Of a DNA stretch of 64,000 bases, positions 756 through 53,487 are shown piece after piece. This DNA is from Climacium dendroides (lineage: Eukaryota; Streptophyta; Bryopsida; Hypnales; Climaciaceae). A program made the position numbers and the translations under genes. Numbering within the stretch: the first letter of the stretch is position 1; every line of letters begins with the position of its first letter. The stretch is from NCBI GenBank assembly GCA_950106755.1, contig CATNNA010000007.1:682001-746000 (forward strand), read 5' to 3'. Below the pieces are notes generated by a model. It was not told the origin of the DNA. It saw only the letters and a program-made list of their open reading frames with translations, and ran no database searches.

Positions 756-781
756 AAGGCCTTATTCGTTAAATTGAGACA
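752..781 (+). repeat. Element 1 left terminal inverted repeat with target duplication AGAA
   Basis: AGAA (752-755) is followed by a 26-bp repeat identical, when reverse-complemented, to 53458-53483. Base 19 of the repeat is T at both ends of this element; Element 2 has A there. Inside this end GAGAC recurs in direct orientation (797-801). Confidence 0.9.
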
Positions 782-1228
782 GAATGGTAGTTTTGAGACT
801 TTGAAAACACATGTTAAAGTTTTTTGGGGGAAGAAGTTGCAGGCTCAATGATAAAAAATAGTTTAGTTTTTAGAGTTTCAGGTACAATTGAGACAACAAT
901 TTCAAAGAAGTGCACAAATAAGGTGAAATACTTTACAACAAAAAATGTCCGGTTTAGGGTTTGGAAAGAAAATTCAAGCAAATTTACACTTGGAAGTTGA
1001 ATGTATTTCAAGGATTTGAATTCAAGTCGTGTAATTTTGCCTTGATTGGCTTATGTAGTTCTCAAAATTTAATCTCTTAATTTCTTATGAGTCCTATGTA
1101 TATACGAAGTGACTGCTTAAATGCAAAGCACTTCACTTTGATGAATATGGGGCTATAGGCATGATGTATACGCCGTATGTATAGTACAAGAGAAATAGCC
1201 TATAGCCTCCAAAACTTCCATTTTTTTC
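782..1228. other. Subterminal region of Element 1, gene X side
   Basis: AT-rich DNA between the terminal repeat and the end of gene X. Element 2 has an equivalent stretch of similar length (52374-52890). No reading frame is supported. Confidence 0.5.
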
Positions 1229-2149
1229 CTAAGCATCGCTATTGTCTACACAACTCTTTTGTTTAGCCTCCAATGCCTTAAGGTCTGCTAGGCCTTTCAA
1301 AATATCCTTGCGTCGCGAAGCAAAATGCCATGCTCTTTCACTGAACTATACACTTGAGACCTCCGTACTTCTAGCTCTAGCCTCACTGCGAAGTAGCTTG
1401 CAGGTACTAGGAGGAGCCTCGGAGGCAGAAAGGGATTTTGATCCTCGTAACGGCTTTGGCACCAAGAGTTTGACATTGGATATGCACACAGTACCGGATC
1501 CACTAGACTTGGAGCCCGAATGCCACCGACGGTTTTGAAGAAACCTCTTTGTATAGATATTCTCTCGTGAGGGAAGCAATCGTCTCGCTCCAACACCCAC
1601 TATAGGGCGAGGCCAATTATCTCCAAGTTGAGGTACCCGAATATCACTTGTAGACTTCCGATTCACTGGAAAACCAGAGGAGTCGGTACTCTTGTTCAAG
1701 TTTGAAGGCACTATGGATGTTGTCAAACGTGTAACATCGTCGAGTCTATGATATCCCGCACCAAGTTCGGGGATGAGGTGGAGTCTCCGACTTGTCGCGG
1801 CCTCCGACCGCAGAGGAGATGAAAACGAATCGGCTGGAGTCGAAGACGCCCGTTTGAGCGGCAACGGGGAGTAGATGGGAGTTATGAACGAGCCTTTACT
1901 TGGTGGACTGTCGACCACACCGTCCTTTACGTCCTCCTTCATGTAGTCTATGGCCGTAGATGCTGCATCCGTGGTGGAGTGCAACAAGTACGGTTTGGAT
2001 ATAGGAATGGTGTCGCAACTCCCGTCTGCTAAGTTGCAGCTCCTATCCACTGACTCGTTGGAGGTTGAGATTGATTTCTCTGATCCGGAAAGGAGACTCT
2101 TCGTCAGCCTCTGCCTTTTCGGAGGACATTCACCAAAGGGCAGTCCAAC
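1229..2149 (-). pseudogene. Gene X, last exon (Element 1 copy)
   Basis: A splice acceptor (CTCTAG at about 2150) opens a frame of about 300 codons that aligns with 51452-52373. Shared blocks are SLLSGSEK, SKPY-LRS-ADAAS-AIDY, DGVVDSPPS, and near the end SRR-DIL-GLA with EA. A TAG at 1346-1348 interrupts it, but the following codons still match the other copy and end at a natural TAG at 1229-1231. The sequence is Ser/Pro/Arg rich with no fold I recognise. Codons at 1734-1754 form one of the element's palindromes and read YHRLDD. It may be an alternative last exon or a separate protein, because the preceding FCP1-like exon has its own stop. Confidence 0.55.
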
Positions 2150-2329
2150 CTAGAGCAAGCACAAAATACAAGTGTCAGGGATGTACTTTTCAAGTAATCC
2201 TTTTGCAAGGCCAATAACTCTTGACCAAGCGCCACAAGAAAAAAACCCAGCTTCAAAATCAAATATTAGGTGTCAAGCTCTCTTGAATGGAGTTTATTAT
2301 TTTACCACAAAATGTATCATACATGATTA

Positions 2330-2428
2330 ATTTACAACAAGTAGGCGGCATTTACAACAAGTAGGTGACATTTACAACAAGTAGGCGGCATTTACAACAA
2401 GTAGGTGACATTTACAACAAGTAGGTCT
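2330..2428. repeat. 20-bp tandem repeat, about five copies
   Basis: Units of TTTACAACAAGTAGG plus a 5-bp tail alternate between CGGCA and TGACA tails. They lie just downstream of the FCP1-like exon of Element 1. No equivalent was noticed in Element 2. Confidence 0.8.
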
Positions 2429-2449
2429 CTATGCGGGGACTAGTGAAGT

Positions 2450-3283
2450 CTACTTCCTACGACGACCTCGCCCTACCACTAATTCTATCCTAGGAAGCTC
2501 GTATCGAACACCTAGGTTTCTACTAGACTCTCTCATTGCTTCTACGATCTGTTGCATTGAGAGGTCACGGGCACCCAAAGGGTTCAGGCCAATCTGTTTG
2601 TCTTGGACGTAACCCCGCAAGTCCCCGTCGTTGCAATTCAGATGGAGGTGTCTAAGCCAGGGTAAGAGTTTGTCCATAAGAATGTTGTCCCTCCGTTTCA
2701 CGCAACTCCAAGTGTCCAAGAAGATGGAATTGCCGTTCATATTGCAGACGCTCTTGGTAGGAGAGTCGTCAATGAGGAGGGTGTTATTCATTGAGAACGG
2801 ATCCCCGCCACTAGGACTTGTGAACAGGGTCTCCAACAATACTTTCAGGCAATGGACTTTGCCCCCCATATGAAAGTGCTTTTCCTTGGAGACCTCAATC
2901 TTGAGACATTGCTCTTGACCTAGGATGTCAAATGGGTACTTGACACCGTGGAAGAGATGTTCTACGATAGGTTCTACATTGCGCCTCATCATCGTGGTCC
3001 ACACTACCACCCTCTTCGCAATGTCAGAAACCTCATGGAGGAATTGCCCAACATTTGGTCGGGCAAATATAGCCTCGGTCCCAATTACTATTGGGATTCT
3101 ATGGCATAGAACATGGTCTTCGACTTGCAAGTGCTTTAACTTTGCAACAGAGGACTTTGAAACCACTTGGCAGAGAACGCCGTTCAAGTCCAAGACAATG
3201 TTCAACCGCTTTGGCCTAGTTTCTGGCCCTATCACTGGGACGTTCCTCAAGACGATGTCTCTTGCTGCTCCCTCCGATTCTAC
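2450..3283 (-). CDS. Gene X, FCP1/NIF-like HAD phosphatase-like exon (Element 1 copy)
   Basis: A pyrimidine tract and acceptor TTTGGTCAG precede an open frame of about 277 codons. HAD motif I appears as DLNGVL, where canonical FCP1-type enzymes have a second Asp (DxDxT/V). A motif II-like VVVWTTMM and motif IV LLIDDSP follow in the expected order, and a DILGQEQC segment sits between them as in plant TIM50/SCP-like proteins. The family removes phosphate from phosphoserine or phosphothreonine, classically on the RNA polymerase II tail. Loss of the second Asp makes activity doubtful, although plant paralogues with DLNG are common. This exon is intact, unlike its neighbours, and aligns end to end with 50397-51239. 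Confidence 0.75.
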   Translation of the reverse strand, partial: VESEGAARDIVLRNVPVIGPETRPKRLNIVLDLNGVLCQVVSKSSVAKLKHLQVEDHVLCHRIPIVIGTEAIFARPNVGQFLHEVSDIAKRVVVWTTMMRRNVEPIVEHLFHGVKYPFDILGQEQCLKIEVSKEKHFHMGGKVHCLKVLLETLFTSPSGGDPFSMNNTLLIDDSPTKSVCNMNGNSIFLDTWSCVKRRDNILMDKLLPWLRHLHLNCNDGDLRGYVQDKQIGLNPLGARDLSMQQIVEAMRESSRNLGVRYELPRIELVVGRGRRRK

Positions 3284-3788
3284 CTGACCAAAGAAAAAAA
3301 ACAGAGAATGGAGTTACTTGATTAAATGTAGAGGATGGACTTCCAAATTGCGGAAACACCAACCGAATCCCACTAATCTCTTGGCTGCTGTCAGGCAGAG
3401 CCTTCATAGGCAACGGACGGTGCATGCTTTGATGTTTTTGGAGCTAAGGGAAAAAACATGAATTGAATGAAATTAGATGCATATGCACAGTCTATAAAAG
3501 AAAATCCTTTCTTTATTTACAAAGAAAATGATACATGTTTTGATCTACGGCCGACTAAACTGTACACTCAAAACAGTATGCTACACTTGACTAGACGCAT
3601 CCTCTCCGCGGACGGGTTCGCCGTCCGTGCGAAGAAATCGAGCCATCAAGGATTGGCGCTGCCATCCTGTCACGCAGCACGAATACGAATAAAATTTCAT
3701 AATAGAACTAGCCCACTCTAACACTGCAATTTCCTAACAAAATAAAAGAGATCAAGCGTCCAAAGTTCTAATGACCTGTTCGACATAC
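3284..3788 (-). other. Intron 3 of gene X (Element 1)
   Basis: Donor GTATGT at 3788 and acceptor CAG at 3286-3284. It contains a GC-rich hairpin near 3607-3629 (GCGGACGG, loop, CCGTCCG). No palindrome of the main family was seen here. Confidence 0.55.
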
Positions 3789-5381: not shown

Positions 5382-5573
5382 CTGAATCAAAGGCAGGAGG
5401 TTCAGTTAGTACAATAGTTCAAGTTATCGTCGGGTCGATGATACCCAGTCTCGAAATACAACATATTCAAAGGAAACGCCGAGGAATTATCGTCGGGTCG
5501 ATGATACCCACGCACAGAATACAACAAATTATGCATTAACAAGCGCGAGGTTCATATGATTAAATGAATTTAC
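5382..5573 (-). other. Intron 2 of gene X (Element 1) with two palindromes
   Basis: Donor GTAAAT and acceptor CAG. It carries two copies of ATCGTCGGGTCGATGAT, at 5424-5444 and 5487-5507. Intron 2 of Element 2 also carries exactly two. Confidence 0.8.
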
Positions 5574-6898
5574 CTTGGAGGCCATCATGAACTTCGTTCC
5601 CGTGTAAACTCCAAGGACATTTTCTTCAGGCGTTGCAAAAGACTGCAGCACATCGAGGTAGAACTCAAATCGGAGTTCGCTTGCAAACATCCTGTACTTG
5701 TTTTCAGTGCACCTCGCGGGGTCCTTATAGTACACACAATCCGGGGAGGTGTCATACTGAGCTCGCATCAGTGGGCGCACGGAAGATGCAAAATCGTTTC
5801 CTTTCTTAAAAAGGAAGAGGAGTGGTAGGGGGTCTATCCTCTTACGAACAGGGAGGCAGTTGAGGTTCTTGGCCCTACAAGGTATGTACATTGAATGCAC
5901 GACGTCGAATTCTTGAAGGTTGTGCGCTGCAAATTTACAGGCGGCTCCCCTTTGGTTCTCGCGCTTAAAAATAAAGAGCCACACGTTTGGCTCTGTCATA
6001 GAGGGCTCAAGCTTCTCTTTCAGGAAGCTGAGAAATCGGTCAACAGCTCCGACATCGTCAATGTGAATGTGCCTTAAAATTTCCCTAGAGTCAAACACCC
6101 CCAAGTTGATTGTCGACGCCATGTACTGGTACGTGCTGTTTGAAACAAGTGAACACGCAACCTTGTCTATTGCGCGCATGTGAACCTCGCCTACGATAAC
6201 CGGAAGCTTGTACTTTAACGTCATAAAAGTTTGGAACATGTACATCACTTCTGGAAATTGATCCTCCAAATCTGTCACCCGCTTCAGACGAGCGTCGTTC
6301 TGGAGTCGCTTCTTGAAATATTCTTTGTTTGGGTGTGAAAGCAAGAAATCCCAAGATGCTGACGAGAACCTGTGCCTCAACTTCCAGTCCCCCCACATGA
6401 AGTCATTGACATCCCCAGCGGTATCAAAGAACTCTAGGCGCGGCTTCACGTCTACCAAATCCTGTATGATAACTTTCTTCCGCTTTCTTCTTTCGACCCA
6501 ATCGGAAGCCACATAGTTGTCGCTTATTGGGATCCTAGTCTTCGAGACGGAGACTTTTGGATACCCACATGTGCGGTTGTTTGTTTGCAAGATGAGATGT
6601 TTTGCAAAGTCCCTAAAGTCTATGTCCATGAAGTGACCGCATCGTCTACAAAACTCCCGCTTCAAGTTCTGGTCATTTTCCTTGAAACCTTTGAAGTCCT
6701 TGAAAGGTTCTTCAGTGATAGGGTCAATCAAATTTCCTACGGGGTGCCATTGGAAGAACTTCTCCCACATCAACTAGTAATCGTCAGGGAGAGTTGTTAT
6801 CTGAATCTCATTCTTTAAGTCCTTCAGAAGTTCACCTTGGCTCCGTCTATGATTGGATTTATGTTTTGAAACCGCTGGAGGACTGCCATAGAGAAACT
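5574..6898 (-). pseudogene. Gene X, exon 2 (Element 1 copy): methylase-like domain
   Basis: The acceptor CTTGCAG opens a frame homologous to 46740-48068 (SF--AV--RFQNINP). A frameshift near 6830 and a TAG near 6775 interrupt the first 45 codons. The remaining roughly 400 codons are open. Conserved blocks: RRKRKK-IQDL, FSSA-WDFLLS, YFKKRL-NDA-LKRV, KLEPSM--NVWLFI, YIPC-A, FLFKK-N-FASSVR, ELR-EFYL--LQ-FA-P-ENVLG-YTG. The last block resembles motif I of beta-class N4/N6 DNA methylases, with the catalytic pattern lost. Where DPPY would be expected there is FDSREI. See the Element 2 copy for the full argument. Confidence 0.6.
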
Positions 6899-7031
6899 CT
6901 GCAAGCATATCAATCGCGTATGTCAGCTTTGGGCACAATAACCGGAATATTCACAAGATAATCAATCAAGGAAAAGAAACAAGCTAAATGGGGATTTATC
7001 GTCGACTCGATGATAAGTTGGGGAGCTTTAC
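6899..7031 (-). other. Intron 1 of gene X (Element 1) with one palindrome
   Basis: Donor GTAAAG and acceptor CTTGCAG. One palindrome (ATCGTCGACTCGATGAT) at 6996-7016 matches the single palindrome in intron 1 of Element 2. Confidence 0.8.
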
Positions 7032-8417
7032 CGCGTATTTTGTTGGACTGTAAATTGACAAATTCTTTCTGTCAGCAGGCTTTGTCTTCGACAATGCTGG
7101 GCGATCCATCAATATCCAAATGTTGCGGCAACTGATTAACTGGTTGCCCCACGTGGGTTGGGCGTGGTGCAAGTGGTTGGTCAGATTGTAGAAGGATGAG
7201 ATGCACCTAAGCTTGTTTACGTCTTGCGTCCAAACAATAAGAGCTTCCCAAGTCTTTAAGTCCTCTTTCCTGTCGACGAAGCAATTTTCTTTTTGTAGCT
7301 CCTGTGAAGCTACAATGTTGTGTTGGCCATTGATGATCATGAAGCGCATTCGTTTGATGTCTTCCCATTTTGACGGTTTGGTCTTCAATAGCTTATTGAC
7401 ACTACCAACCGGAGTGAGACAAACCTTCTGGCGTTGGTCTTTGTGCACCATTTGAATGAGAAACTGCTTCATGTTGGTGACTAGATTTTTTTGCAGTGTC
7501 CGAATGACGTACTCATCGTTGGCAAGTATGCACTGCTTGATGTCTATCATCACTGTCTTCATATTAAAGAAGAAGTGGTCTTTTTGGTTTGCCCAGAATT
7601 CTTGTTGAACTTTGCCAATAGCCAAGAAGTCGGGAACTGGATCTCGGAAGGGAGCCAGCCCAGAGTTTGTAGTCAATGCCGAGCCTGAATTGCCCCCCGC
7701 AGCGATATTCCTACGCTTCCGACTTGAATTCGTGGGTGTCGTTGCCACTCTTTTCTTCTGTTCAAATTTTGTTTGGTCGGGCTTCCGTTTTCCTCCGGAA
7801 GTTGAAGGAGCAACAGGCGGGGTCGAGATAGAGGTTGCCTTCTTCTTCTGGAGAGTGGCCGCTTGTCTGCCAAAGTTAGGTTCTTTTTCCACCAAATCGT
7901 GTGCGTACCGGTCCAGGCATTGAAGAATTGAGCGAAGTCTTCTTGCAATTGACTCGGCACTAGTTGTATGCCAGGGAAGGTACTTCTCACTGAACTGTTG
8001 AACCAACGATTCCAGCTTTGTACCTTCCAGCAACATCAAGAGATTCTCCAGGTCAAATTACCCATGGAGCTTAGTCACGTCTATCACAATAGAGTGACAG
8101 TGATTCATTTGCTCACTAAGGTCGTTCACCTCCCTCACTACAATCAGCACGTAATTGTGGTGGTGTTGCTCGATCGTCGTCACCTTCTCCTTCAAGTTTA
8201 GAACTTGATATGTCAACTGGTTTTTTATTCTGTACCGGAGGAAGACGAAGTTCTTGAATCGATTGACCCCAAAACACCAGCTGTTGATATGGTCCTTGAA
8301 TTCCCATAGCGTTTCGTAGGACTCCCGGTCATCAACGATGAAGGGATCAATTGGATTCACGAAGTGTTGGATGTGGGGACTGCTGATCGAGTAGTCGTAT
8401 TTGTCGCTGGCTTCCAT
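7032..8417 (-). pseudogene. Gene X, exon 1 (Element 1 copy): possible ParB-like domain
   Basis: The ATG at 8417 follows an acceptor-like CATTGCAG, so a 5' untranslated intron is likely. The protein aligns with 45138-46550 throughout (YDYS, FVNPI, WCFGVNR, HCHSIV, LLEG--ESL--QF, LPW). A TAA at 8058-8060 breaks it after about 119 codons, but the same frame continues to the donor. The central part is low-complexity, with Lys/Arg-rich likely nuclear localisation segments (KKRV, SRKRR). The C-terminal third has MIINGQH-I-AS-ELQ followed by W-A-IVWT-D-NKLR-IS-FYN-TNH, which resembles a ParB/DGQHR-type core. Function is not established. Confidence 0.6.
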
Positions 8418-8549
8418 CACTGCTGCAATGAGATTGGGGATTGAATGAGTTAAATGTGTTTTAGCTTGGGCGTAAAATTCTACAGAAGTTCTATTTTCAG
8501 AGACTCGTCGATGTTAAACATTAGACATTGAAGTTTTACGGAGGTTTTG

Positions 8550-9414
8550 TTATCGTCGCCCCGACGATAACCTTCATGAACGGTTGAAATGTTTACTGGT
8601 TTCTGGTCCTTGGCATTACTTATTGTCGACTCGACAATATGTTTTATACGTTCTTGAGCTTTTGATACTGGATTTGGTTTCACGCATGGACTAATCGTGG
8701 ACTTGACAATAACTGCTATTGATTCTTAGAATTTGTTCACTGGGTGTTGAATCCTGTCTGACTTATTGTCGACCCGACGATAATCTTCCTAGAAGCTCGA
8801 AATATTGCTAATTATTGGGTTCTAACTCGGGCCTTGACTTATCATCGACTCGACAATAAGTTTCATGGATTCTCGAAATTGGTTTACTGGGTTTGGACTC
8901 TCGGCTGGACTTATCGTCGATAAGCTTCATGGATTCTCGGTATTACTATACTAGCTTTGTACGCCCAACTTTACTTATCGTCGACTCGACGATAACTCTC
9001 ATTAATTGTTGAAATCCGTTATCTGGATTTGGTCTCTCGGCTAGACTTATCGTCGACTCGACGATAGGCTTCATGGTTGCTCGATACTGTACTGGCTTTT
9101 TACGCCCGACTTGGCTTATCATCGACTTGACAATAACTTTCACTAATTCATTATCTGGCTTTGGACTCTCGGACTGACTTATCGTCGACTCGACGATAAG
9201 CTTCATTGTTGCTCAAAATTTTATACTAGGTTTGTACGCTTTGCTTGACTTATCGTCGACTCGATAATAACTTTTACTAATCCCTAAAGTTCTTGATCTG
9301 GGTTTGGACTCTGGGCTGGACTTATCGTCGACTCGACGATAAGCTTCATGGTTGCTCAAAATTTTTGAATTGGGTTAGGACTCCAGCCTAGACTTATCAT
9401 CGAATCGACAATAA
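8550..9414. repeat. Palindrome cluster A, upstream of gene X (Element 1)
   Basis: About 13 sites of the form TTATCGTCGA, one central base, then the reverse complement. They start near 8550, 8620, 8692 (poor), 8763, 8839, 8911 (13-bp collapsed), 8975, 9047, 9116, 9179, 9250, 9322 and 9394. The spacing is about 63-76 bp and the DNA between sites is itself a degraded tandem repeat (GCTTCATGGTTGCTC, GGTTTGGACTC). The consensus is exact at 8975, 9179 and 9322. The cluster sits immediately upstream of the gene X start. Likely protein-binding sites, possibly for an element-encoded protein (inference). Confidence 0.9.
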
Positions 9415-14310: not shown

Positions 14311-15503
14311 TTATCGTCGACTCGACGATATTTGTAGGTAGTCAACTCCCTATAACTATGTCCATAATGAGTAGAAGTGTTGTTCAACACGAGAAATATA
14401 CCGTCACGAGACCAAAGACGTCATCTTTTCTCATCCATTAGATATCGTCGGGTCGACGATATAACTATTTAGTTAAGTTAGTTCTTTCACAAAATTGGAG
14501 TGCAAAATAATTTGAATTACAAATAAGTAATTGTTATAGACTTCTCACAAGTATCGTCGGGTCGACGATGACTATTCAGCCTTGTTCAACCGCATGGGAA
14601 TTTCAAAGTCAGTTCTTTCACAACATTGGAGTGCTCCATAATTTCTTGTAGTAAATAAATGATCAGAAATCGGCAGTGCCGTCTCGCTAGTATCATCGGG
14701 TCGACAATAACTATTTAGTCTTCAACTGCGTGGGATTTTTTAAGAGAATTACTTCACTACATTGAAAAGCCAAGTAATTTCTTAGAGTGAATCAATGATC
14801 AGGAATTGCCATAGTCATCTCGCTAGTATCGCCGACTCAACGATAAGAGATCAGTTTCTTGAGATGTATGTTATGAATCTGGAAGTTATTCACATAATTA
14901 TTTTTCAAAATAGTTTTTTGAGCAAAGCAATTGTAATTGTTGCCCATTGGACGAGAAGACCTGATTTATCGTTGAGTCGACGATAACTCGCTGAAGTTCA
15001 ATTTTAATTGATTTCAAAGACAAAGTCATCTTCAAGTAAACCCTTATGGAATTAGTTAATATTGAGTTCATTGTTCTTTATCAATGTAAATAAAGTTATC
15101 GTTGAGTCAACGATAACTTCCACAAGAAGTCAATGCCATTCGACTATATTTCCATCATGAATTTTGTACTTATTGTGCCGTGGATCTGAACTGATGAACA
15201 ACTTTAGAGTATATTGAGGGACAGGATTTAGTGACACAAGGTATTCCTAGGTTTCAGCTGTCATCCTCTCAATGAGAACTTATAGAGAAATGAAACAAAG
15301 GTTCTCATGACCTTAGTGTACTTGTAATGGTCGAGTCAAGGATATGTAAACTGATTCTCTGGATATCTGTTCAATTGAATTAATCGTCCGAAGTATAATA
15401 AACTGACTTGCCGTCAACTCAAAGTAAACTTTCATAACAAAGAGGATTTTGTCGATGATCAATCACTTATTACGTGTCTTCTTATCGTCGAGTCGACGGT
15501 AAA
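14311..15503. repeat. Palindrome cluster B, upstream of the DUF7869-like gene (Element 1)
   Basis: About nine sites near 14311, 14442, 14551, 14690, 14824, 14966, 15094, 15329 (poor) and 15482. Forms include ATCGTCGACTCGACGAT, ATCGTCGGGTCGACGAT and ATCGTTGAGTCAACGAT. Spacing is about 110-150 bp, wider than in cluster A. The bases between sites share words such as TTCACAACATTGGAGTGC, a sign of old tandem duplication. The last site is about 200 bp before the ATG. Confidence 0.88.
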
Positions 15504-15700: not shown

Positions 15701-18700
15701 ATGGATGTTCATGGACCTGAAGAATTTGCAAATCCAATGCCTACCTTACCTCCTGGAATCGCCGAGTGTGACGGGATTCCTAGGGCGAAATGGCATCCTC
15801 GGGCTGTCACGCTCCGAAATGAAGCGGGAGTTGATGTTGCAAATGGAATTTGTCAAAATGTTGATCCAGATCTCGTCGTAGATATGGATGGAAGGCCTCT
15901 TGGTGACGATAGAGTGGCTATCCAAATAGCAAAGTCTTTGTGTGAGGAGGAAGTCCCGTACGCGTGGATGTGGTCAATCCATTCTTGGCACATCAAACAA
16001 GTGTTTCTCGAAGGTGTCAGTTTGTATGACCATGACTAGACAAACATTTATAACATGGCCATCAATTACTCGAAGGGTTCGGAAAGGGGTTAGGTCTTAC
16101 GAAACAACTTGTGAAAGGGTGGAGCCTGATCTCCCTCCCAAAAAAGAGTCCCTTCTCACTGTTCAAGCAATCACTTATGTTTCCACCAAAACATGTTGCA
16201 GTAGTAATTGTTTGCAGCCATTTCTGCGTGGGCAAATTCAAGCTCTCCAAACTCAACTCCATGTAAACGACGGAGTTTATAATCGAAAGAGGTGTCTTCT
16301 CGATGTGCATGGTCAGATCCACAAAGACCCTTTTGGCAAAGAGTGGATTACCTTGAAAGGTAGAAACGTGTGCCCCACTGCATGGTGGACCATTCATGGG
16401 ATTTCGAAAGCTACGTTTTATAGATACAAGGAAATGTCCAAAAACGGGAAGAAACCGGAGTAACATGGAAATCTGGGGTCCAAAAAACCAAGGATGCATA
16501 CCTTGCAGGCTACTGCCACGTTTAAAACTATGATTTTACCGGATGCTGAAAAAATGCCACACAAGACAAGGACGCTGGAATCAGGGGAGAAAGTCTCGGC
16601 AATGGTTTTGCCATCGACATTCTTGTGGAGTCACCAGTTGCCAAAAATCAATGAAGCCAATGCAACACTGAACTTGCCGCCAATTTCTTCTAGTGGTTTG
16701 AGCAACATTCGACAGGCTTCTTTCCCAAAATTTGCTCCGAAGGCTCGTAGGGACACTTTTGCTCGATGTGGTTTATGTGACCAATATAAGCAATTGAGGG
16801 CTGCATGTACTCCGCTTTCGTACGCCCAAGAGAAGTAGTCGCAAATTCTAGATGCTCATAATGTCGGGCAAAGGGCCCACAGACTATTGTACTATGCTAA
16901 TCGATATATGTCCGAAAAATATCCTCAGAAGATGCTAACCATCATCCATGATAAAATGGATCACTCCAAGACCGCTTCTCCGCACTTCTCTCACAAGACC
17001 AAAGCAACTGATTCCTTCATGAAGATGCCTGTTGCTGTGACGGGTATGATTGCCCATGGTCATGGGGACGTTCAATACGCACATTATGGATTGGATATTT
17101 TTCCAACAGATTCCAATCATACCATTGAGTCCATTGCAAAGTTGTTGCGTGATCTTGAACAAGAACCACAGAATTCATCACGCAAATTATTTTCTCAGGA
17201 AGAGACGCAATCCATATTAACGAAGGCAATCTTGAACGGCTCGGAGATTTGTTTAGACTCCCTCCTTCTTCCTCCAGAAGCAATCCCTGCTCATCCTCTG
17301 CCACCAATATTGACTCTACAGCTCGATAATGCATCTGGTGACAATAAAAATAGATGGGTTTTTGCTTTCTGTTCACTTTTGGTTTACAAAGGCATTTTCC
17401 GCGAAGTGTACATCAACTTCCTCATTCACTAGAAGAAAAAGCAGGGTTTTGCGACTGTGGTTTGCGACTGGTTTGTAGTCGTATCGGACGTTTGCGACTT
17501 GGTGATATTCTGGAGTCCGCAGTCGCAGTGGACAAGTCGCATGAGTTGCACTGCAGTCGCGAGGTTGTTTGTCATTCGATAGGCAATGGAGAACTTCGTC
17601 GATGAACTGCTGTGACGTGGTTGCTGATGTGGAAGTTATTTCACTTATTTGTGTGCAACTGGTTTGCAACTAATGTGCAACTAGTTTGCGATTGACATAC
17701 AACTAGTGTGCAACTAGTTTGAGATTGATGTGCAACTGGTTTGCGACTAGAGTGCAACTGGTTTGCGATTGACATACAACTGGTTTGCAACTAGTGTGCA
17801 ACTAGTTTGCGATTGATGTGCAACTCGTTTGCGACTAGTGTGCAACTAGTTTGCGATTGACATACAACTGGTTTGCAACTAGTTTGCGACTTGGTTATAA
17901 TTTATAGAGTTGTAGATTATAGAAATCTACAAATTGTAGAAATCTACAAAGTGTAAAAATCTACAAAATATATAAATATTAGAATTTCACTATCAAAATT
18001 CATTATACAAGAATGCTATAACTTACCATTCTTATCTGTTCAAGCTGATGGTATTCTTGACAATCGATATGGGACAATTGAATCGATTTTCAATCATATT
18101 CTAGTTGCATTGCACTTGTTCTCTAGTTGCATTTGAATCGTTTTTTAGTTGCACTGTAGTCGGGCTCTAGTTGCATTATAGTTGATTCCTAGTTGCATTT
18201 GAGTCATTTCTAAGTTGCAATCTTCTAGATTTTAGTTGCAGCCTGTAATCAAAGCGATTGCATTTTTCCACGGTGGACTCTACTTCGCGGATAGCTGTCC
18301 ACATGGACAATTGCGATGAATATTGGATGTAGAATACCTCATGTTAGTTCTTCTGTTACAATATCGTAACCCTATTCTTCATTTTCCGACTACTTTGCGA
18401 CTACAACTACATACACGTGAAATTTGATGCAAATACAGAGGGCTACAGTTGCATCTCAGTTGTATAGGACACATAGTCGCATCTCAGTGGGTTGCAACGG
18501 ACACGTTTTTCTTCTAGTGATTGTTGGACACACCCACGAAGACATTGATACTCTTTTTGGCCGTTGGAGTAGTCTATTGAAGACAAATAACTACCTTACA
18601 CTTCCGAGGCTTATGAAATCCTTCATGGATTGTGAAAATCATCTGGTCATTCCTCATTTGATCGAGGAAGTACCTGGTTTTAAGCGATTTGTGCATGGGT

Positions 18701-32950: not shown

Positions 32951-33716
32951 CCGTGGATGCGGTTTTGAAGTGAGTAGGAGAGAGATGGACGGCAGTAGGC
33001 AAATGGAGGCTAATCTGTTATGAAACGGCCGCTACACACTCATTGTCGATGTTTACATTGCACATGATGTGCGAATGGATGTCAAGGAGGACGCCCATTC
33101 TAACACGCTTGTTGAAAAGGACGTTGGATATAACATTCCAATGGACACATTTAAACCAAGGTCGCAGGCATGCTCGTTGGAATTGGGGCACCTTCCATTC
33201 TGAATGTTCTTTTCGCTACAGTAAAAAAGTTTTTTGTTTCCTTCCCATGGAGTTCTGAGGTGAAAGTTGCATGGAGAATGTCTCAAACACCATATTTGCT
33301 ATTGCGTTCACCCCAGAACCAGGTCTAGGTACTTGCATGTGCTAGCCCAAGACCTTCTCATAGATCTTAGGAAGATTGTTTAGTGGAGCATGGTGATGCA
33401 ATGGAAGAAGTCGTCTATGCATTGAATAGAAGGATTATCAATGTCTTGTATAGAATGGAATGTCACACCCCATGTTCCGTAGTAGTGAGAGGAGTTGTAC
33501 TTGTAATTATTGTGTTCTACCATATTCTAAGAGTGGAAAATAGTAATGAATCAGATTGGGCTGAGTACATAATGTGCTCTGTATTTTTCTGTAGGCAGAG
33601 ATCTCCCCACCTAGAAGCCAATGGAATGAACTTGGCCGGAACCCCCCCATGTTGTCCCCATTTAATTTTCCTCCCAACTCCCTAAATCTGAAAAGCAATG
33701 GAAGGAATGCACTATG
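32951..33716. other. CACTA 3' flank, non-coding
   Basis: No supported gene. Its end (33600-33716) is the first of three related segments with the words CAATGGAATGAACTTGG and AACCCCC. Confidence 0.5.
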
Positions 33717-35560: not shown

Positions 35561-36249
35561 CTCCATTTTATGGGGCCTAATTTGCAATCCCAAAGCCAAT
35601 GGAATAATGTCACATTGATCCCAACACTCCCAAGTAATCCCCATTTTCTGTTCTCAAAACCCATCTCCAAATAATATTGCGTAACTTCACCTCTATGATA
35701 AGGTTATCCCAATGAGTCTCCATTTTTATTTCCCATCTTTCATGTTTTAGAACCTAAAGTATTTCATTCTGTACATCCTTTTCATTTTGGCATACCCTAG
35801 ACTTGTAACACCAAAACACATTTGTGGAGTCATTACATGTGTCTATGTCACTTTCATCCTACCTCGTACCCATGACTTCACATCCTCCCAGAAAGCCTGA
35901 ATTTTACAGCCTGGAGCTCTTTCCTATATTGATCAGGTGTTTTCCCTGTAGGGCAGCACCCTCCCTGCCCTGTCAGTGACAGCAGTGCACCTGCCCGTAG
36001 TGAAAGACGCACCAGTGGCTGACGTGGCCGATTCGTGTTTTTTTGGACGTCATCTAAAACGTCCTTTATTTTTTCTGACATAGTGAAAAACACGTCCGTT
36101 CAAAGTGACATCCCTATATTTCCTGACGTCTATTATGACGTTTCAGATGACGTCACAAAAAATTGTCCCTAATCTGCGCGTTCATCCAAAAACGTAGTGA
36201 CGTCAAAAATAACGGGGATGTCACAGCGTAACGCAGTAAAAAACAGGGG
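35561..36249. promoter_or_regulatory. CACTA right subterminal repeat region
   Basis: Repeated GACGT/ACGTC words (GACGTGGCC, GACGTCATC, GACGTTTC) are concentrated in 36010-36240, mirroring the left end. Confidence 0.7.
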
Positions 36250-36261
36250 TTTCTTATAGTG

Positions 36262-36990
36262 ATAGAACGTAGCTCTTGCAATCCCATGAATGATCCACCA
36301 TGCAGTGGGGCACACTTCTCTACCTTTCAAGGTAATCCACTCTTTGCCAACACTGTCTTTATGGATTTGCCTATGCACCTCCAAAAGTGTCTTGCTACAC
36401 GCCTTGAAGTCCTCACCTAAATATAGTTCAGTCCTTATCGCTTGGATTTGCCCACGCGGAAAAGGTTGAACACAATTTTTCTGACAACATGATTTTGTGG
36501 ACACTGATGTGATCGATTCCATAGAGAGGAGAAGTTCTTTCTTGGGTGGAATCTCTGGATCAATCCTTTCACGAGTTGTTTCGTACGATCGAACCCCCTT
36601 ACGAATTCTTCTGCTTGATGGGTTCATAGCTGCGTTATATACATGGGTTTGGTCATGGTCATATAAGTTGACATCGTCATCTAAAAAAACTCTCTTGATG
36701 TCCCAGGAACGAAGTGACCATACATTGCCAGATGAGAAGAGTTCCTCGTTCAGAGACTCAGCAATTTGAATGGCAACCCGGTCATCGCCAAGAGGCTTTC
36801 CATCTTGGTCAATGATTAACTCTGGGTCAACGTTTTGGCAAACCCCCCTTGCAAGGTCCACCCCATCTTCGTTTCGAAGAGTGACAAATCGTGAGACCCA
36901 TTTTGCACAAGCAATCCCCTCGCATACCTGAACATCAGGTGGAAATGGGGGAACTGGATTCGCGAACTCATCAAACCCATGGAAATCCAT
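36262..36990 (-). pseudogene. DUF7869-like putative transposase, N-terminal part (Element 2 copy)
   Basis: Reads from the ATG at 36990 (MDFHGFDEF; an upstream in-frame ATG exists at 37023) for 243 codons up to the CACTA insertion at TFY. It matches the plus-strand copy from MDVHGPEEF onward: CEGIACAKW, RNEDGVDLARG, LGDDRVAIQIA, RKGVRSYETT, CCQKNC, GKEWITLKG and CPTAWW. The start at 36990 is preferred because it coincides with the start of the other copy. With the 708 codons at 22487-20364 the gene was about 951 codons. The CC-x3-C with later CGLC may form a zinc site (inference). Confidence 0.82.
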
Positions 36991-37248
36991 TCTGCAAGCA
37001 CGAAGACCAATCCTTAGATTCATTGTTGAGTCAAAGATATAGATGTTCTATTGCAGCAACTTCTAGTATACTAGAAACTAAACATACTCTATATTCACTA
37101 ATATTAACATCATGTCTCTATAATTTCTTACGAATACAACATCGTTGAATGGATGATCCAATGATTTGTGCTATGATTAAGTCATTCATCTTCATCTAAG
37201 TAAATACTTTTCAATGCAAAGTTGCAAACACTTTATTTATAGTTGACA

Positions 37249-38340
37249 TTATCATCGCCCCGACGATAACCGGAAGTTGTTGTTACTCAGAGTTATTGTT
37301 GACTCAATGATAACTTTCCTCAACAAAACTCATTTTTTGATTCGTTGGATGTGATGAAAAAATAATTCAACCCAATACACAATCTTGTTTGAAATCATAA
37401 GAAATTGAAGTATCTACACCTTTGAAAATTTCTGACAAGATTATCATCGACCCGACGATAACTGGAACTCGAAGAACTCAAAGTTATCGTTGCCACAACG
37501 ATAACAATCTTCAATGAAACTCCTCTCATGATTCGTTGGTTGTCACGAAGGAAAAATTCAACCCAATGCACATTCTTCTTTCAAATCATAAGAAATTGAA
37601 ATAGCTACACATTTGCTAAGAATGCCAATTGAAAACATCTGACTACGTTATCATCGACTCGACGATAACTAGGAGCGAAAGAATTCAGAGGTATCATTGA
37701 CTCAACGATAACTATCCTCAACGAAACTCCTTTCATGATTTGTTCGATTTGACGAAGAAATAATTCAACCCGATGCACAATCTCCTTTGAAATCATAAGC
37801 AATTGACATACCTACACATTTGCTAAGAATGCTAACTGAAAATTACTGACTACGTTATCATCAACTCGACGATAACTAGAAGTCAAAGAACTCAGAGTTA
37901 TCGTTGACACAACGATAATGATCTTCAATGAAACTCCTTTCATGATTCGTTAGTTGTGACTAAGGAAAAATTCAACCCAATGCACATTCTTCTTTCAAAT
38001 CATAGGAAATTGAAGTACCTTCAAATTTGCTAAGAATACCGATTGAAAAAATCTGACTACGTTATCATCGACTCGACGATAACTAGGAGCAAAAGAATTT
38101 AGAGGTATCATTGACTCAACGATAACTATCCTCAACGAAACTCCTTTCATGATTTGTTCAATTTGGCAAAGAAATAATTCAACCCGATGCACATTCTGCT
38201 TTGGAATCAGAAGAAACTAAAGTAGCTACACATTTGCTATGAATGCCGATTGAAAAAATCTGACTACGTTATCATCGACTCAACGATAACCAAAAGTCAA
38301 AGAGGTCACAGTTATCGTCGACTCAACGATAAGTACCCTC
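37249..38340. repeat. Palindrome cluster C: six about 205-bp units, two sites each (Element 2)
   Basis: Strong sites (ATCATCGACTCGACGAT type) start near 37249, 37440, 37646, 37854, 38060 and 38268. Each is followed about 42 bp later by a weaker partner (ATCGTTGACTCAACGAT type) near 37292, 37482, 37690, 37897, 38105 and 38310. The 205-bp period includes shared words such as ATTCAACCC-ATGCACATTCT and ACACATTTGCTAAGAATGCC. The cluster is upstream of the minus-strand DUF7869-like gene, mirroring cluster B. Confidence 0.92.
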
Positions 38341-44351: not shown

Positions 44352-44714
44352 GGTTATCCTCGAGTCGAGGATAACCTAGGACCACCGTCGAACTTAGGGT
44401 TATCCTCGAGTCGAGGATAACCTGGTTCTAACGCAGAACTGAAGGTTATCCTCGACTCGAGGATAACCTACATCCATTGTAGAACTCAGGGTTATCCTCG
44501 ACTCGAGGATAACCTAGGTCCACCGTCAAAAATGACGACCCTTAAACTGTAGAACTCAAGGTTATCCTCGAGTCGAGGATATTTTGGTTCAGCCTAAAAA
44601 TTGAAGGGAATCCTCGAGTCGAGAATAACCTGGGATACATCACCGCTATCTACAATTCCAGAATTCATTGGTACATGAGAAGTCTCCCTGGTTATCCTCG
44701 ACTTGAGGATAATT
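44352..44714. repeat. Palindrome cluster D, upstream of gene X (Element 2)
   Basis: Perfect or near-perfect 25-bp palindromes: GGTTATCCTCGA, one central base, then the reverse complement. They start at 44352, 44398, 44444, 44490 and 44560 (44352-44490 perfect); degraded copies lie at about 44606 and 44690, and a single site at about 45001. The first four are spaced exactly 46 bp apart. The core is ATCCTCGAGTCGAGGAT instead of the ATCGTCG form of cluster A. Confidence 0.93.
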
Positions 44715-45137
44715 TGGAAGAATTTGATATTAGCCAATAGGAAGCAAACAATCATTCATAGAAGATAATCAACAAATTAATATCAAATGTTCAAAACTGA
44801 ACTCAAATAGAGTTGAAGAACAATATTCTACAAATTATTAAAAAAACTTCAGAATGTTCTATTATACGATCATCGATACAACAAACAGAACAGAAAATCA
44901 TATTGCTTCTTAGCCACGAACGTCCTCAATGTATCATTCAGTCATTCACATGAAATGACCATTGAAATTTGTAGTTCATGCTACGAGTCCCCTCACTCCA
45001 ATTATCCTCGAGTCGACGATGCTCTGTCCAATAATGCGATTCAAACAACAGCAAACAAATAAGACTTCCTTTGAAAATTAAGTATAGCGACCTATAACTA
45101 AATGCCAATAATGTACGTCTTTTGACAGGACCTGAGA

Positions 45138-46550
45138 ATGGATTCAGAGGATGCGTACGACTATTCAGTGACAAAGCACCACCTTGAACCCTTCGTCAAT
45201 CCTGTCGAAGATGGACCCTTCATTTCGGAAATGGAGGATAGCTACGGGAAACTATTCCAGTTCAAATCGCATGTTGCGAGCTGGAGTTTTGGTGTGAACC
45301 GATGGAAAGACTACGTCTTTCTCCAGTACAAAGTCTTTGGGCAGCCGGATTACCTAGTGTGGAATTTGAATGAGAAGGTGATGTTCATAGATGCTCACCA
45401 CAACAACTACGTTGCGGTCGTCCTACGTGAGGTAGATGACGCTGGGAAAGCCGGAAAACATTGTCACTCAATAGTGCTCAATGTCAACTCAAATCAAGCA
45501 GAGTTTGACCTTGAGAACCTCATGACATTATTGGAGGGCTCTGAAATGGAGTCCCTCAATCAGCAATTCATAGATAGCGGATATCTTCCATGGAAAACCG
45601 GGACCAGCAAAGCTACTGCGACCAAGCTCAGCCTTATCTTCCAGACATTAGATAGGTACGCTTTGTCAAACGTTCAAGCTCCTCCAAGTGTGGGAGGGCA
45701 AATATGTAATATTCAACAACGAGAATCGACTGGAAAGCGGAACCTGCCATCTGGGAGCGGAGGAGGCAGAAGTAGGGGGACTCAACCTAGTCAACCCATG
45801 CCGGAGACTCAAACTCAGGGTTCCATTGATCCGAGCCCAACACCACCAAGTAAGAGAAGAAGGAAAAGTTTAGTGGGAGGTGCCACGGGTGCAGGTAGCT
45901 CGGGGTTTGCATTGACATCAGTTGGAACTCAATCAGAAGAGCCGATGGAAGAGTTTCAGAGGCACGCACTCATTCAGAGGGAGTTCTGGGCAGAACACAA
46001 GCAGTGTTTTCTCTTCGATCAGAACACTGTTAGTGTGAACATCAAGCAATGTGTGATTGCAAAAGAAGAGTATATAATCCGTGCATTGCAAGAGGACATG
46101 GTCAAGTCCGTGAAAGAGCAACTCATCCAACTCATCGACATCAAGCAGCGGCAGAAAGTATGCTTGACTCCAGTGGACAGAAATAATCAACTCTTGAAAA
46201 TGAAACCCCAGAAGTGGGAAGACATTGAAAATGGCCAGTTCATGATTATCAATGGCCAACACAGTATAACAGCATCCAAGGAGCTTCAAAAGCAAGGGTG
46301 CGGTGAAAGCAGGCGTGTGGAACTGCAGAGGTGGGATGCATACATTGTTTGGACGTTGGACCCAAACAAACTTCGACACATTTCGCGCTTCTACAATGCA
46401 ACGAACCACCTAGATCATGCGCAGCCGACGTGGGGGAATCAAATAATCAGCTGTAGGAACATCTGGATCGCCTGCAAGTGTCCCACTCTTGAAGTGACCG
46501 ATCATGTGGTGCGACAGAACAAGGCTGTATACAGTCCGGTCAACTACAAG
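45138..46550 (+). CDS. Gene X, exon 1 (Element 2 copy): possible ParB-like domain
   Basis: 471 intact codons from an ATG just after an acceptor (TTGACAG) to the donor GTGAGT at 46551. Residues 1-180 are a conserved globular region (YDYS, FVNPV, WSFGVNRWKDYVFLQY, HHNNYVAVVLREV, HCHSIVLN). Residues 190-260 are low-complexity and basic (PSKRRRKS), a likely nuclear signal. Residues 290-460 form a second domain with VSVNIKQCVIA, QKVCLTPV, then MIINGQHSITASKEL (residues 369-383) and KLRHISRFYNATNH. The IINGQHSI-AS-EL pattern is like box II of ParB/DGQHR proteins, where a Gly-rich loop with His or Arg contacts nucleotide. This is motif-level similarity only. Confidence 0.7.
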
Positions 46551-46739
46551 GTGAGTGAGAGCATACCACCATCATCGACTCGACGATACTTGCTGCACTA
46601 CAGCATTGAATTCCTTTAGTCTTGTATTCATTGATCAATAGTTTGAATTTTAAATAGAACTCAATTTGATGATGGGCTCTATGTTTTTCTTATCATCCTC
46701 TCTCTCTGTCCTTATTTCTCCATAACCTCTTCTTTATAG
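46551..46739 (+). other. Intron 1 of gene X (Element 2) with one palindrome
   Basis: GTGAGT to TTTATAG, phase 0, joining NYK to SFTDAVVDRFQ. One palindrome, ATCATCGACTCGACGAT, lies at about 46570-46590. Confidence 0.8.
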
Positions 46740-48068
46740 AGCTTTACCGATGCAGTTGTAGATCGTTTCCAGAATATTAATCCTAAAGGAGACGGTGCAA
46801 CAATAAGGGGGCCATCGGACCTGAAGAACGAAATCCAGATAATAACCCTCTCGGACGAGTTGTGGGATCATTGGAAACTCTTCCTGACAAAGCACGGTGA
46901 AGGCGAGCTCATTGACCCAGCTACCCTTAAAATGTATAAGGAAAATAAAGGGTACAAATTGAAGCCTGCCGGATTACGAAGGGAGTTCTTTAAACATGCT
47001 GGCCATTTCACTGACAAGGATTTCGGAAAACAGGCACAACATCTGCTTGGGATTACTCCTGGTCGGGCTGCACCATATCCCAAGCTTTCAATTTCAAGAA
47101 TGAAGGTGTTAGCAGTGGACAACATGACAAGTACAAACTGGACTGAGCGAAGGAAGAGGAAGAAAATCGTGATTCAAGACTTGATGAGCATCAAGCCTGA
47201 CTTAAAGCTTCTAGATAGCCGGAAGGACATAATCGATGAGCGGTGGAGGTCTTGGAAGTCTCGCCACCAATTCTCTTCTGCTACATGGGATTTCCTCCTT
47301 TCGTACATCAAGGCCGACTATTTTAAAAAGCGCCTACGAAATGATGCATGGCTGAAGCGCGTAGCGGACCTCGAAAAAGAATTCCTAGACGTTCTGCACA
47401 TGTACAATCGCTTCATGAAGCTGAAATACAATCTTCCTGAATTGAGCGGTGGAGTGGAGATACGCGGCATGGATGTCACGGCGAAGGCGCTTGTCACCAC
47501 TAACCGATTCACTTACTGCCGTCGGGAGGTGAATCTTGCAGTGGTTGACACGAGAGAAGTCCCTCGATCAAAACCCACAGCAGTCGAGGCAGCCATAGAC
47601 CCATTTCTGGACTTCTTGGACGACAAGTTGGAGCCAAGTATGAGTGCAGCCAACGTGTGGCTTTTCATATTACGTGACAGTGAGGATGTGAGCGCGGCTG
47701 TTAGCTTCGCTGACTTGAACATGGCGGAGTACGACATATTGAAGTCCAAGTACATCCCATGCAAAGCGGAAATGCTCAACAACGTGACGAACCGAGGCGT
47801 TGCCCCAGATGTGCCTCTTTTCTTCCTCTTCAAGAAAGAGAACGAATTCGCTTCATCTGTACGGGATTTCATGAAGCCAGAGTATCGAGCGCCTTCGGAA
47901 ACATGTCCGTATTACAAGGATGCGCACAGGAACACAGAATGCAAGTGGAGAATTCACCCCACTGAACTCCGAATGGAGTTCTATTTAGAGATCCTCCAAG
48001 CATTTGCAGTCCCTGGCGAGAACGTGCTTGGAATTTATACTGGAGTCAAGCTCATGCTTGCTGCAAAG
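46740..48068 (+). CDS. Gene X, exon 2 (Element 2 copy): degenerate DNA-methylase-like domain
   Basis: 443 intact codons between acceptor TTTATAG and donor GTAGGT. Its C-terminal part follows the layout of beta-class N4/N6 DNA methylases (e.g. ParB-methylase fusions of phages and bacteria): a strand ending in Asp where DPPY is expected (here VVDTREV, about residue 740 counting from exon 1), then a helix-strand NVWLFI, an IPC/K segment, then HPTELRMEFYLEILQAF like the HPTQKP block, then PGENVLGIYTGVKLMLAA (about residue 896) where active enzymes have VLDPFxGSGTT, then FFYGYVDK at the start of exon 3. Both catalytic motifs are altered in both copies, so any role is probably binding rather than methyl transfer. 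This is inference from pattern; the lineage-specific fold could be something else. Confidence 0.6.
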
Positions 48069-48356
48069 GTAGGTCACGTTATCAATGTCATTTACTACCA
48101 TTCACTCGAGAATAATGGTCACTTTGTGGAGTGGATTTGTTAGGCTGCTGTAGTTCGTGAATCTATCGAGGAATTGTCTCGTTTATCCTCGACTCAACGA
48201 TAATCACCTAGTTTGTATAATCCGTTTTCCTGTCATACTCTTGTCTTTGCTCTTCATACAAAACAAAGGCTGTAGGATGCTCTTATTATCCTCGACACGA
48301 CGATAACCTCTCCTTGCTCCCCTACGACTCACTAATGTCCTCTTCTCTTGATTCAG
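48069..48356 (+). other. Intron 2 of gene X (Element 2) with two palindromes
   Basis: GTAGGT to TTGATTCAG. Two palindromes, at 48183-48203 (ATCCTCGACTCAACGAT) and 48286-48306 (ATCCTCGACACGACGAT), match the two in Element 1. Confidence 0.82.
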
Positions 48357-49876: not shown

Positions 49877-50396
49877 GTAAACTCCTCAAATCCAGAGTAT
49901 TAATTTAAGGTGGAGACTGTGATAGTCGTTTGATATTGTGTGGATGTTTGGAATGCGGTGCGCATGAACTGCCGACTCTTATTCGAGTTCATGATGCTTG
50001 ACAGGATGGCGTGCCTATCCTTGAATGAATTGCGTGGACGGATCCTGTGTCCGTGGTCGACATGCGTGTAGAATAGTATAGCGTAGGCCTCAATGCGCAA
50101 TCTTGACGATCCATACTTAAACGAAATTTTGACATGTATTTTATAATCTACCTTAAATAAAGTATAAGCGTTTCAATAGATTGTGTACAATGACGTCTAA
50201 TTGATCCGATTTGTGCATGTGTTCATGCTCAGCTCAATACACATAGAAATGTGCAACGTCCGGTACCAATGAAAGCACTCCCTCGCGGAAGTCCCCAGTC
50301 AATTAGTGGAATGAAATGCATCTGTCCGCTTGCTGGCTCTCCCACTTCTGCATTTATTCAGGTAACTCCAATTCTCATTTGTTTTGCTTTGATCAG
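49877..50396 (+). other. Intron 3 of gene X (Element 2)
   Basis: GTAAAC to TTTGATCAG, about 520 bp, similar in length to intron 3 of Element 1 (505 bp). No family palindrome noticed. Confidence 0.55.
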
Positions 50397-51239
50397 GTAG
50401 CATCGGAGGGGCGAAGAGAGGTCTTGCGAACGAGCTTGCGTCCTTTGATGCCTTCGCCGCGGAGAAAATGGCTGAATATTGTCTTAGACCTGAACGGCGT
50501 GCTTTGCCAGAGCATGCCGAGGGCGTTTGCTGATAAATTGAAGTCTTATAGGCTTGAAGACAACGTTCTTAGCCATCAGTACCCGACTGTCATCGGATCG
50601 AAAGCAGTATTCGCTAGACAAAATGTCAGGGAATTCTTGCGGCAGGTGTCGAAAATTGCGCATAGGGTCATTGTATGGTCCACCATGATGAAGCATAATG
50701 CAGAACCGATTGCTAGGCACCTGTTCAGCAATTGCAGGGCCCCCTTCGATATACTAGGCCAGGAACAGTGTTCGAAGGTAGAAGTCGCTCTTGGAAAGTT
50801 CTTCCATCGCAGAAACAAAGTGTTCTGCTTGAAGATTATTGAGGATGGCCTGTTTTCCGTTCATAGTCAGGACCCGTTCTTTAACGATCGGAACACCCTT
50901 CTCATTGATGATTCTCCTGAAAAGAGTATTTGCAATGATAATGGAAATGCCTTGTTCCTCGAGACTTGGAGTCATTCCAAGCGGAGGGACGACGTGCTCA
51001 TAGGCGAGCTGCTCCCTTGGCTCCGGAGGTTGCATTCCATCTGTCTGGACGACGGGATGCAACAATACGTCAATGAAAATCAGATTGGGTTAGACCCGCC
51101 CGGTCCCGATGACCATGCCCTCCAAGATATCATTGAGGCCATGAAAGAGTCCGCGAAGGTCATGAATTGCTCATACGAGCTTTCCGCAGTAGGTCTACGT
51201 GTAGAGACGCGTCGCCGTAGAGTTTACACTTCGACTTAG
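50397..51239 (+). CDS. Gene X, FCP1/NIF-like HAD phosphatase-like exon (Element 2 copy)
   Basis: 280 intact codons. WLNIVLDLNGVLCQ carries motif I as DLNGVL (second Asp replaced by Asn). VIVWSTMM is motif II; DILGQEQC and a conserved Lys region come next; LLIDDSPEKS is motif IV. Family members dephosphorylate Ser/Thr-phosphoproteins; here catalysis is uncertain. The exon has stayed open in both copies while exons 1-3 and 5 have collected breaks in one or the other, which hints at use or recent capture (inference). It has its own stop codon, so it may end one transcript form, with the next exon used in another. VASEG at its start matches VESEG of Element 1 right after the acceptor. Confidence 0.78.
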   Translation, partial: VASEGRREVLRTSLRPLMPSPRRKWLNIVLDLNGVLCQSMPRAFADKLKSYRLEDNVLSHQYPTVIGSKAVFARQNVREFLRQVSKIAHRVIVWSTMMKHNAEPIARHLFSNCRAPFDILGQEQCSKVEVALGKFFHRRNKVFCLKIIEDGLFSVHSQDPFFNDRNTLLIDDSPEKSICNDNGNALFLETWSHSKRRDDVLIGELLPWLRRLHSICLDDGMQQYVNENQIGLDPPGPDDHALQDIIEAMKESAKVMNCSYELSAVGLRVETRRRRVYTST

Positions 51240-52373: not shown

Positions 52374-52890
52374 CAAAGACAAGTTTTAGAATCCATCAAT
52401 TTTGTAGTCTCTTTTACCATGAGTAGAATGATTGTCAAATTGTAAGTACTCAGAGAAATTGAGTATGTACGGGCATATTGTAGTTACTATAAATAGCATA
52501 GCAAATATACAAAAACTAGAACACAGAGGAGGTGCTATGACATGTAACTATGAAGCACTTTATTTTTTTCACATGGATTTGGGAAAATAAAAAATAAACT
52601 CAATGATTCGTTTGTTTTCACTGTAAATGATCTATTCTATTGCAAATGACACGGTTCCTCCAAGCTTCTTAATTGATCGTGAACTCATTCGCTTGATTAA
52701 TTTCCTTGAAAGCACCTTTTGAACCATCGCATTATTAAATTGATTGTCATCATATAAAATCACCTCTTCTATCTCTTTAGATGCAACTTCTTGTTGATGT
52801 TGACAAAACAGTTCTATTTATCATTGAGTTCAACAACTCTTTGTGAAATGGGGCTTTGGTTTTCAATTTTTGAAGTCTCAGAATGACCAT
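52374..52890. other. Subterminal region of Element 2, gene X side
   Basis: AT-rich DNA, no gene. Near the end a second GAGAC copy lies in direct orientation to the one in the terminal repeat (GTCTCA at about 52876 on plus), as at the gene X end of Element 1. Confidence 0.5.
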
Positions 52891-52922
52891 TTTGTCTCAT
52901 TTTAACGAATAAGGCCTTATAG
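52891..52922 (-). repeat. Element 2 right terminal repeat with duplication ATAG
   Basis: 28-bp inverted match to 19822-19849, followed by ATAG at 52919-52922. Confidence 0.92.
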
Positions 52923-53120
52923 TGTTTAGTTTATTATAGTACTGCTAAGTAGGGTGTTTGTGTAACAAATGCTGATTTCTGTTTATTGAAAATGGTTATC
53001 CATAATATTTCTTCTCTATATTCTTCAATGAATGTATTCATTTTGAAATGTCTTTGATTTTATTTCTAAGAAACAAAATGCATAAATGTTGATTGTGATT
53101 TTTTAAATTTTTTTGCTTTT

Positions 53121-53436
53121 TTAAACTGTTGCACCATAATTAGACATGTATATTGAGTCTTTGAAGTCTCAATTTCTTGAGTAGTCTCAATTTCATGAAC
53201 TCTTTTTAAATCTAAATATGCTTTTTAAAATTGTTGCACCATAATTAGATATGGATATTGAGTCTTTGAAGTCTCAATTTCTTGAGTAGTCTCAATTTAA
53301 TGAATTCTTTTTAAATCTAAATATGCTTTTCTAAACTTTTGCACCATAATTAGACATGTATATTGAGTCTTTGAAGTCTCAATTTCTTGAGTAGTCTCAA
53401 TTTAATGAATTCTTTTTAAATCTAAATATGGTGCAA
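53121..53436. repeat. 105-bp tandem repeat, three copies, in the Element 1 right subterminal region
   Basis: The word GCACCATAAT starts at 53131, 53236 and 53341, exactly 105 bp apart. Each unit contains two or three GTCTCAATTT words, the complement of the inner part of the terminal repeat (AAATTGAGAC). Probably transposase-binding sites multiplied near the end. Confidence 0.9.
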
Positions 53437-53457
53437 AATTAAAATGAGACCTCCACT

Positions 53458-53487
53458 TGTCTCAATTTAACGAATAAGGCCTTAGAA
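53458..53487 (-). repeat. Element 1 right terminal repeat with duplication AGAA
   Basis: 26-bp perfect inverted match to 756-781, followed by AGAA at 53484-53487. Confidence 0.92.

Follow-up and report, generated by a model that had tools for sequence, protein, structure and literature searches.

Two nested giant transposons, probably Sola1-like, with a predicted DUF7869 transposase, a ParB-like gene and element-private palindromes in the moss Climacium dendroides

Sola transposons encode a transposase of the DDD (three-aspartate) type, generate 4-bp target site duplications (TSDs), carry terminal inverted repeats (TIRs) of 11-1124 bp and in some cases exceed 15 kb; they have been found in Physcomitrella (PMC10741241), and a Physcomitrella Sola1 is listed in a review table (PMC9033089). 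In the alga Ectocarpus, the 21.5-kb element Sola1-1_Ec32 is reported to carry, opposite in strand to its transposase, a ParB-methyltransferase gene, and such proteins were suggested to bind the transposon that encodes them and to modify it epigenetically (PMC12477816). With regard to Arabidopsis, the targets of the VANC proteins often form tandem repeats, which differ among related elements (PMC5735166). Here, we analyse a 64-kb stretch of the C. dendroides genome (contig CATNNA010000007.1, positions 682,001 to 746,000; hereafter the window), which holds two nested giant elements, named outer and inner, each with a DUF7869-domain gene, a second gene called X and arrays of palindromes. The account that we favour, with moderate confidence, is that both are defective Sola (Sola1)-type transposons in which DUF7869 would be the transposase and a ParB-like gene X would act on the palindrome arrays.

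The 18-bp end AAGGCCTTATTCGTTAAA occurs at four exact sites, on the plus strand at 756 and 19822 and on the minus strand ending at 52918 and 53483, and no further site was found in the 64-kb window with up to three mismatches. Counted from the tip, the two outer ends are identical over 26 nucleotides and the two inner ends over 28, whereas all four outer/inner cross-pairs match for 18 nucleotides only, which fixes both the pairing and the nesting. The outer pair is flanked by AGAA/AGAA and the inner pair by ATAG/ATAG, so that a 4-bp TSD is present in 2/2 elements, and the termini are AAGGCC. The inner element sits inside the outer one, about 0.56 kb from its right end. When later insertions are subtracted by arithmetic from their junctions, the outer element measures about 18.53 kb and the inner one about 19.32 kb. 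A preliminary description of this DNA had proposed that two giant TIR elements of the same family lie nested here, with perfect 26-28-bp inverted ends, AGAA and ATAG duplications and sizes of about 18.5 and 19.3 kb without later insertions, and it is borne out on all these points.

756..53483, no strand: outer element including both TIRs, split by the inner element; 26-bp inverted ends, TSD AGAA
19822..52918, no strand: inner element, in the orientation opposite to the outer one; 28-bp inverted ends, TSD ATAG
53114..53483, no strand: subterminal 105-bp tandem repeats with TIR-like GTCTCAATTTAAyGAA, plus the outer right TIR

The three 105-bp repeats (53114-53430) each contain the TIR-like GTCTCAATTT, in a form not seen at the other ends. 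The TIR motif gave 0 matches in IMG/VR.

Blastn blocks confirm the mirror-image gene order described earlier, with nucleotide identities between the copies of 70-73% for the DUF7869 blocks and of 65-84%, in pieces, for those of gene X and a phosphatase; given these values, the copies are clearly diverged members with common tips. Junction sequences show that the DUF7869 gene of both copies was split by a CACTA insertion.

15701..19647, plus strand: outer copy of the DUF7869 gene, which probably encodes the transposase (homologous to inner copy and P0001)
20568..22502, minus strand: inner DUF7869 gene, 3' part, 644-aa open frame (PF25273, E-value 2.2e-44; homologs)
36262..37047, minus strand: inner DUF7869 gene, 5' part, past the CACTA (70% homology to outer 15697-16421)
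about 22491..36261, no strand: 13.8-kb CACTA in the inner DUF7869 gene, ends CACTATAAG...CTTATAGTG, TSD ATA
about 17427..18519, no strand: 1.1-kb CACTA-ended insertion in the outer DUF7869 gene, ends CACTAGAAGAAAAA...TTTTTCTTCTAGTG, TSD ATT

The 13.8-kb CACTA has matches to TNP2, DUF4218 and DUF4216 (PF02992, PF13952, PF13960). Neither of the two DUF7869 genes is intact: the outer one is damaged by frame changes, stops and its 1.1-kb CACTA, and the inner frame stops short of where relatives end, the full-length relatives in the protein database having about 935-986 aa. Between the copies, synonymous divergence (dS) exceeds non-synonymous divergence (dN) in both DUF7869 pieces (dS 1.77/dN 0.15 and dS 1.09/dN 0.24) and in the phosphatase (dS 2.49/dN 0.41), which argues for past constraint on both proteins.

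Asp423, Asp549 and Asp591 are conserved in 97.4-100% of the aligned DUF7869 sequences. In the structural model, which resembles Mos1 and retroviral integrases at sub-threshold scores, these residues probably occupy RNase H-fold positions and would be the candidates for catalysis. DUF7869, put forward as a transposase in the preliminary description, is thus judged probable in this predicted role. Among the best 120 of 321 relatives, the highest identity is 83%, and the named ones, from the mosses Ceratodon purpureus and Physcomitrium patens, share 44-53%, which makes moss the most likely host; in an alignment-based protein search aimed past the mosses, which scored the 7995 candidates sharing most words, all of the best 120 of 399 matches carry PF25273. 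Relatives of DUF7869 or of the ParB-like open reading frame (ORF) described below were not confirmed in IMG/VR. Three other assignments were rejected. CACTA/EnSpm elements are marked by CACTA-type termini and a 2-3-bp TSD, as opposed to the AAGGCC termini and 4-bp TSD found here, and the CACTAs of the window are separate, later insertions. KDZ/Zisupton elements have an 8-bp TSD (PMC12730594), again at odds with the 4 bp of both copies. Ginger elements have a transposase resembling Gypsy integrases, and Ginger1 has also been reported with a 4-bp TSD, in the part of the literature drawn on here, but the DUF7869 ORF matches PF25273 alone in Pfam at E-values up to 1, and no integrase family.

Gene X lies on the strand opposite the DUF7869 gene and probably comprises three coding parts in each copy.

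45126..46619, plus strand: inner gene X ORF A, ParB-fold domain at residues about 300-430
46740..48143, plus strand: inner gene X ORF B, methyltransferase-like C-terminal part, probably inactive (hhalign, motif reading)
50307..51239, plus strand: inner NIF/FCP1-type phosphatase exon (PF03031, E-value 1.8e-12)
6996..8513, minus strand: outer gene X ORF A region, two ORFs at 6996-8057 and 8058-8513 (blastn to inner)
5529..6773, minus strand: outer gene X ORF B (alignment with inner ORF B)
2450..3313, minus strand: outer NIF/FCP1-type phosphatase exon (PF03031, E-value 4.7e-13)

Comparison with solved ParB-family structures shows that ORF A has the fold of the ParB N-terminal domain. The GxxR motif, which in ParB supplies the nucleotide-binding arginine, is altered: NGQHS is nearly invariant in the alignment, and the outer copy has NGQHN. 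ORF B, compared by hhalign with 20 viral methyltransferases and controls, is methyltransferase-like by profile, weakly so in another hhalign mode, and its catalytic motif is not recognisable on motif reading; this part is probably degenerate and predicted to be inactive. The ParB-like, methyltransferase-like and phosphatase parts probably belong to one protein X. With regard to linkage, the contigs of DUF7869 relatives (132 distinct sizes) and of ORF A relatives (66) have four sizes in common, 46150, 80586, 460842 and 556257 bases, which suggests contigs holding relatives of both genes, the 46-kb one being the most telling; many of the other relatives' contigs are uninformative on this point since they are only a few kb long.

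The palindrome clusters noted earlier in each element are real and far above what shuffled sequence yields. The 21-bp motif TTATCsTCGAnTCGAsGATAA, searched with up to 6 mismatches and at least 7/10 symmetric pairs, has 50 sites, 24 in the outer and 26 in the inner element; none was found in 14.8 kb of CACTA sequence or in 11.3 kb of flank, and five block shuffles gave 0, 0, 0, 1 and 0. Because these criteria favour symmetry, the sites were re-chosen by one half alone, which yielded 51 unique sites, 51/51 inside the two elements and 44 of them with the partner half. In each copy, one array immediately precedes gene X and another the DUF7869 gene.

8550..9414, no strand: palindrome array upstream of outer gene X
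14311..15502, no strand: palindrome array upstream of the outer DUF7869 gene
37249..38332, no strand: palindrome array upstream of the inner DUF7869 gene, 207-bp tandem units with two palindromes each
44354..45022, no strand: palindrome array upstream of inner gene X, TTATCCTCGA version

Similarity between arrays extends over at most 42 bp in 5/6 comparisons, and over up to 72 bp at 72% between the two inner arrays. Complementarity within the palindromes exceeds expectation at symmetric pairs 6 (27 vs 20.5) and 8 (44 vs 34.9), values to which the symmetry-favouring selection applies, and the remaining pairs are near expectation mostly because they hardly vary. A third locus extends the comparison: among 40 candidate contig stretches, one relative was found, a 4.3-kb contig (L001) with a 51%-identical DUF7869 gene. 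Its palindrome, TTTAGsTCGAnTCGAsCTAAA, has five sites, three upstream and two downstream of the DUF7869 gene, compared with an expectation of 0.025 per shuffle (200 shuffles). The palindrome versions are TTATCGTCGA and TTATCCTCGA in the window and TTTAGCTCGA in L001. Between the window and this one locus, the TCGAnTCGA centre is conserved and the two halves have undergone symmetric changes in their outer part, a pattern that suggests a co-evolving dimeric binding protein. The TIR of the window is absent from the 4.3 kb of L001, so the tip is known from the two window copies. L001 (1-4327), with its moss-type DUF7869 gene and its own palindromes, is filed under a Synechococcales cyanobacterium bin, of which it is probably a moss contamination. 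The half TTTAGC of its palindrome at 114-134 equals that of the plasmid KorB operator, TTTAGCsGCTAAA, possibly by coincidence; KorB is related to ParB, and its site has an odd length.

Taken together, the comparisons with Sola, Ectocarpus and VANC place the window elements within a known kind. As in Sola, including Physcomitrella Sola1, there are a 4-bp TSD (2/2), a DDD-type enzyme with three conserved Asp, TIRs (26 and 28 bp) within the 11-1124-bp range, a length above 15 kb and a moss host, whereas a ParB-type gene and palindrome arrays are unmentioned in the parts of those sources used here; the likeness is one of description. Sola1-1_Ec32 is likewise a giant element, with a gene of ParB and N4/N6 methyltransferase type opposite the transposase, but in the window the methyltransferase-like part looks degenerate and is followed by a NIF phosphatase exon, and palindrome arrays are present, none being mentioned for Ec32 in the sections considered. 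VANDAL elements, in turn, share an element-encoded protein and repeat motifs that differ between related elements, targeting having been shown for VANC and being supposed here; the window elements differ by their superfamily, by palindromes and by having no Pfam match suggestive of VANC. Compared with bacterial ParB/parS, Noc and KorB, the ParB N-domain fold and palindromic site arrays recur, but in a eukaryotic transposon, with an altered GxxR, no ParA found, and methyltransferase-like and phosphatase parts.

These likenesses bear on whether DUF7869 marks a new superfamily apart from Sola, an idea of the preliminary description that we find unlikely. In its favour, no paper naming DUF7869 was found in the literature searched, and Sola1 can be likened by description only; but a 4-bp TSD, a DDD enzyme, a length above 15 kb, a moss host and ParB-type cargo have each been reported for Sola/Sola1, in the parts of the papers drawn on, and the first four of these make the label of an apparently undescribed family probably wrong. 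A Sola1-like family, not an entirely undescribed one, is the probable reading. The accompanying statement that no described plant element has this cargo is uncontradicted by the portion of the literature searched, where palindrome arrays, a degenerate methyltransferase part and a phosphatase exon are likewise not described.

As to how the elements would work, we propose that the DUF7869 DDD/RNase H enzyme works at the 26-28-bp ends and the subterminal repeats, generating 4-bp TSDs, and that the product of gene X is a ParB-like protein whose methyltransferase-like part is degenerate and which probably includes a NIF/FCP1 phosphatase. This protein would bind, probably as a dimer, the 21-bp palindromes before both genes, which would be its operators; by such binding, the element might recognise itself and be regulated or de-silenced, as VANC does for Arabidopsis VANDAL. 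Some observations weigh against an operator role, which is itself putative: individual sites are also present within introns, between genes and at other places in the elements, and ORF A has an altered GxxR and a putative DNA-reading part. The palindromes could instead be transposase sites, small-RNA hairpins or promoter elements for host factors, with gene X as unrelated cargo. We consider this rather doubtful, as the sites are confined to the elements, where each copy has them ahead of both genes, their sequence changes symmetrically between families, and the element itself encodes a ParB-fold protein; for the transposase, moreover, the TIR-like repeats, a separate motif near the ends, are better candidates. 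A partition-like (parABS) system holding copies or ends together would also combine a ParB fold with palindrome arrays, but we regard it as very improbable, since no ParA-like ATPase was present among the 20 ORFs scanned with Pfam and GxxR is altered. Within the Sola-type account, a further and more tentative step, which may well not hold, would be that a bacterial-type ParB/operator pair was captured, its protein and palindrome co-evolving into a family-specific code for self-recognition, anti-silencing or copy control.

The analysis connects DUF7869, a so far unnamed Pfam domain, with a likely transposase, and suggests that land plants, like algae, have giant elements with a ParB-methyltransferase-type gene. 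It also provides a concrete candidate for ParB-type binding sites, in the form of element-only palindromes before both genes that shift symmetrically between families. What is fresh, and testable, is the proposal of a ParB-like protein whose operators are private to the element; if true, it would add to VANC a further type of sequence-specific self-control in transposons and possibly offer a tool to target chromatin states in plants.

When 300 bp of each outer flank were joined with one AGAA, a minus-strand frame continued across the site, with one stop codon about 20 bp from it; as a shared frame is expected by chance about one time in three, this lends weak support to the idea that the outer element's target may have been a gene or an older element. 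A 189-aa minus-strand ORF (53505-54074), with no Pfam match, ends 20 bp from this insertion site. Further, an 87-91-bp tandem array without palindrome lies within the inner element (41775-42174), and a 59-bp tandem array is present in the right flank, outside both elements (57241-57594).
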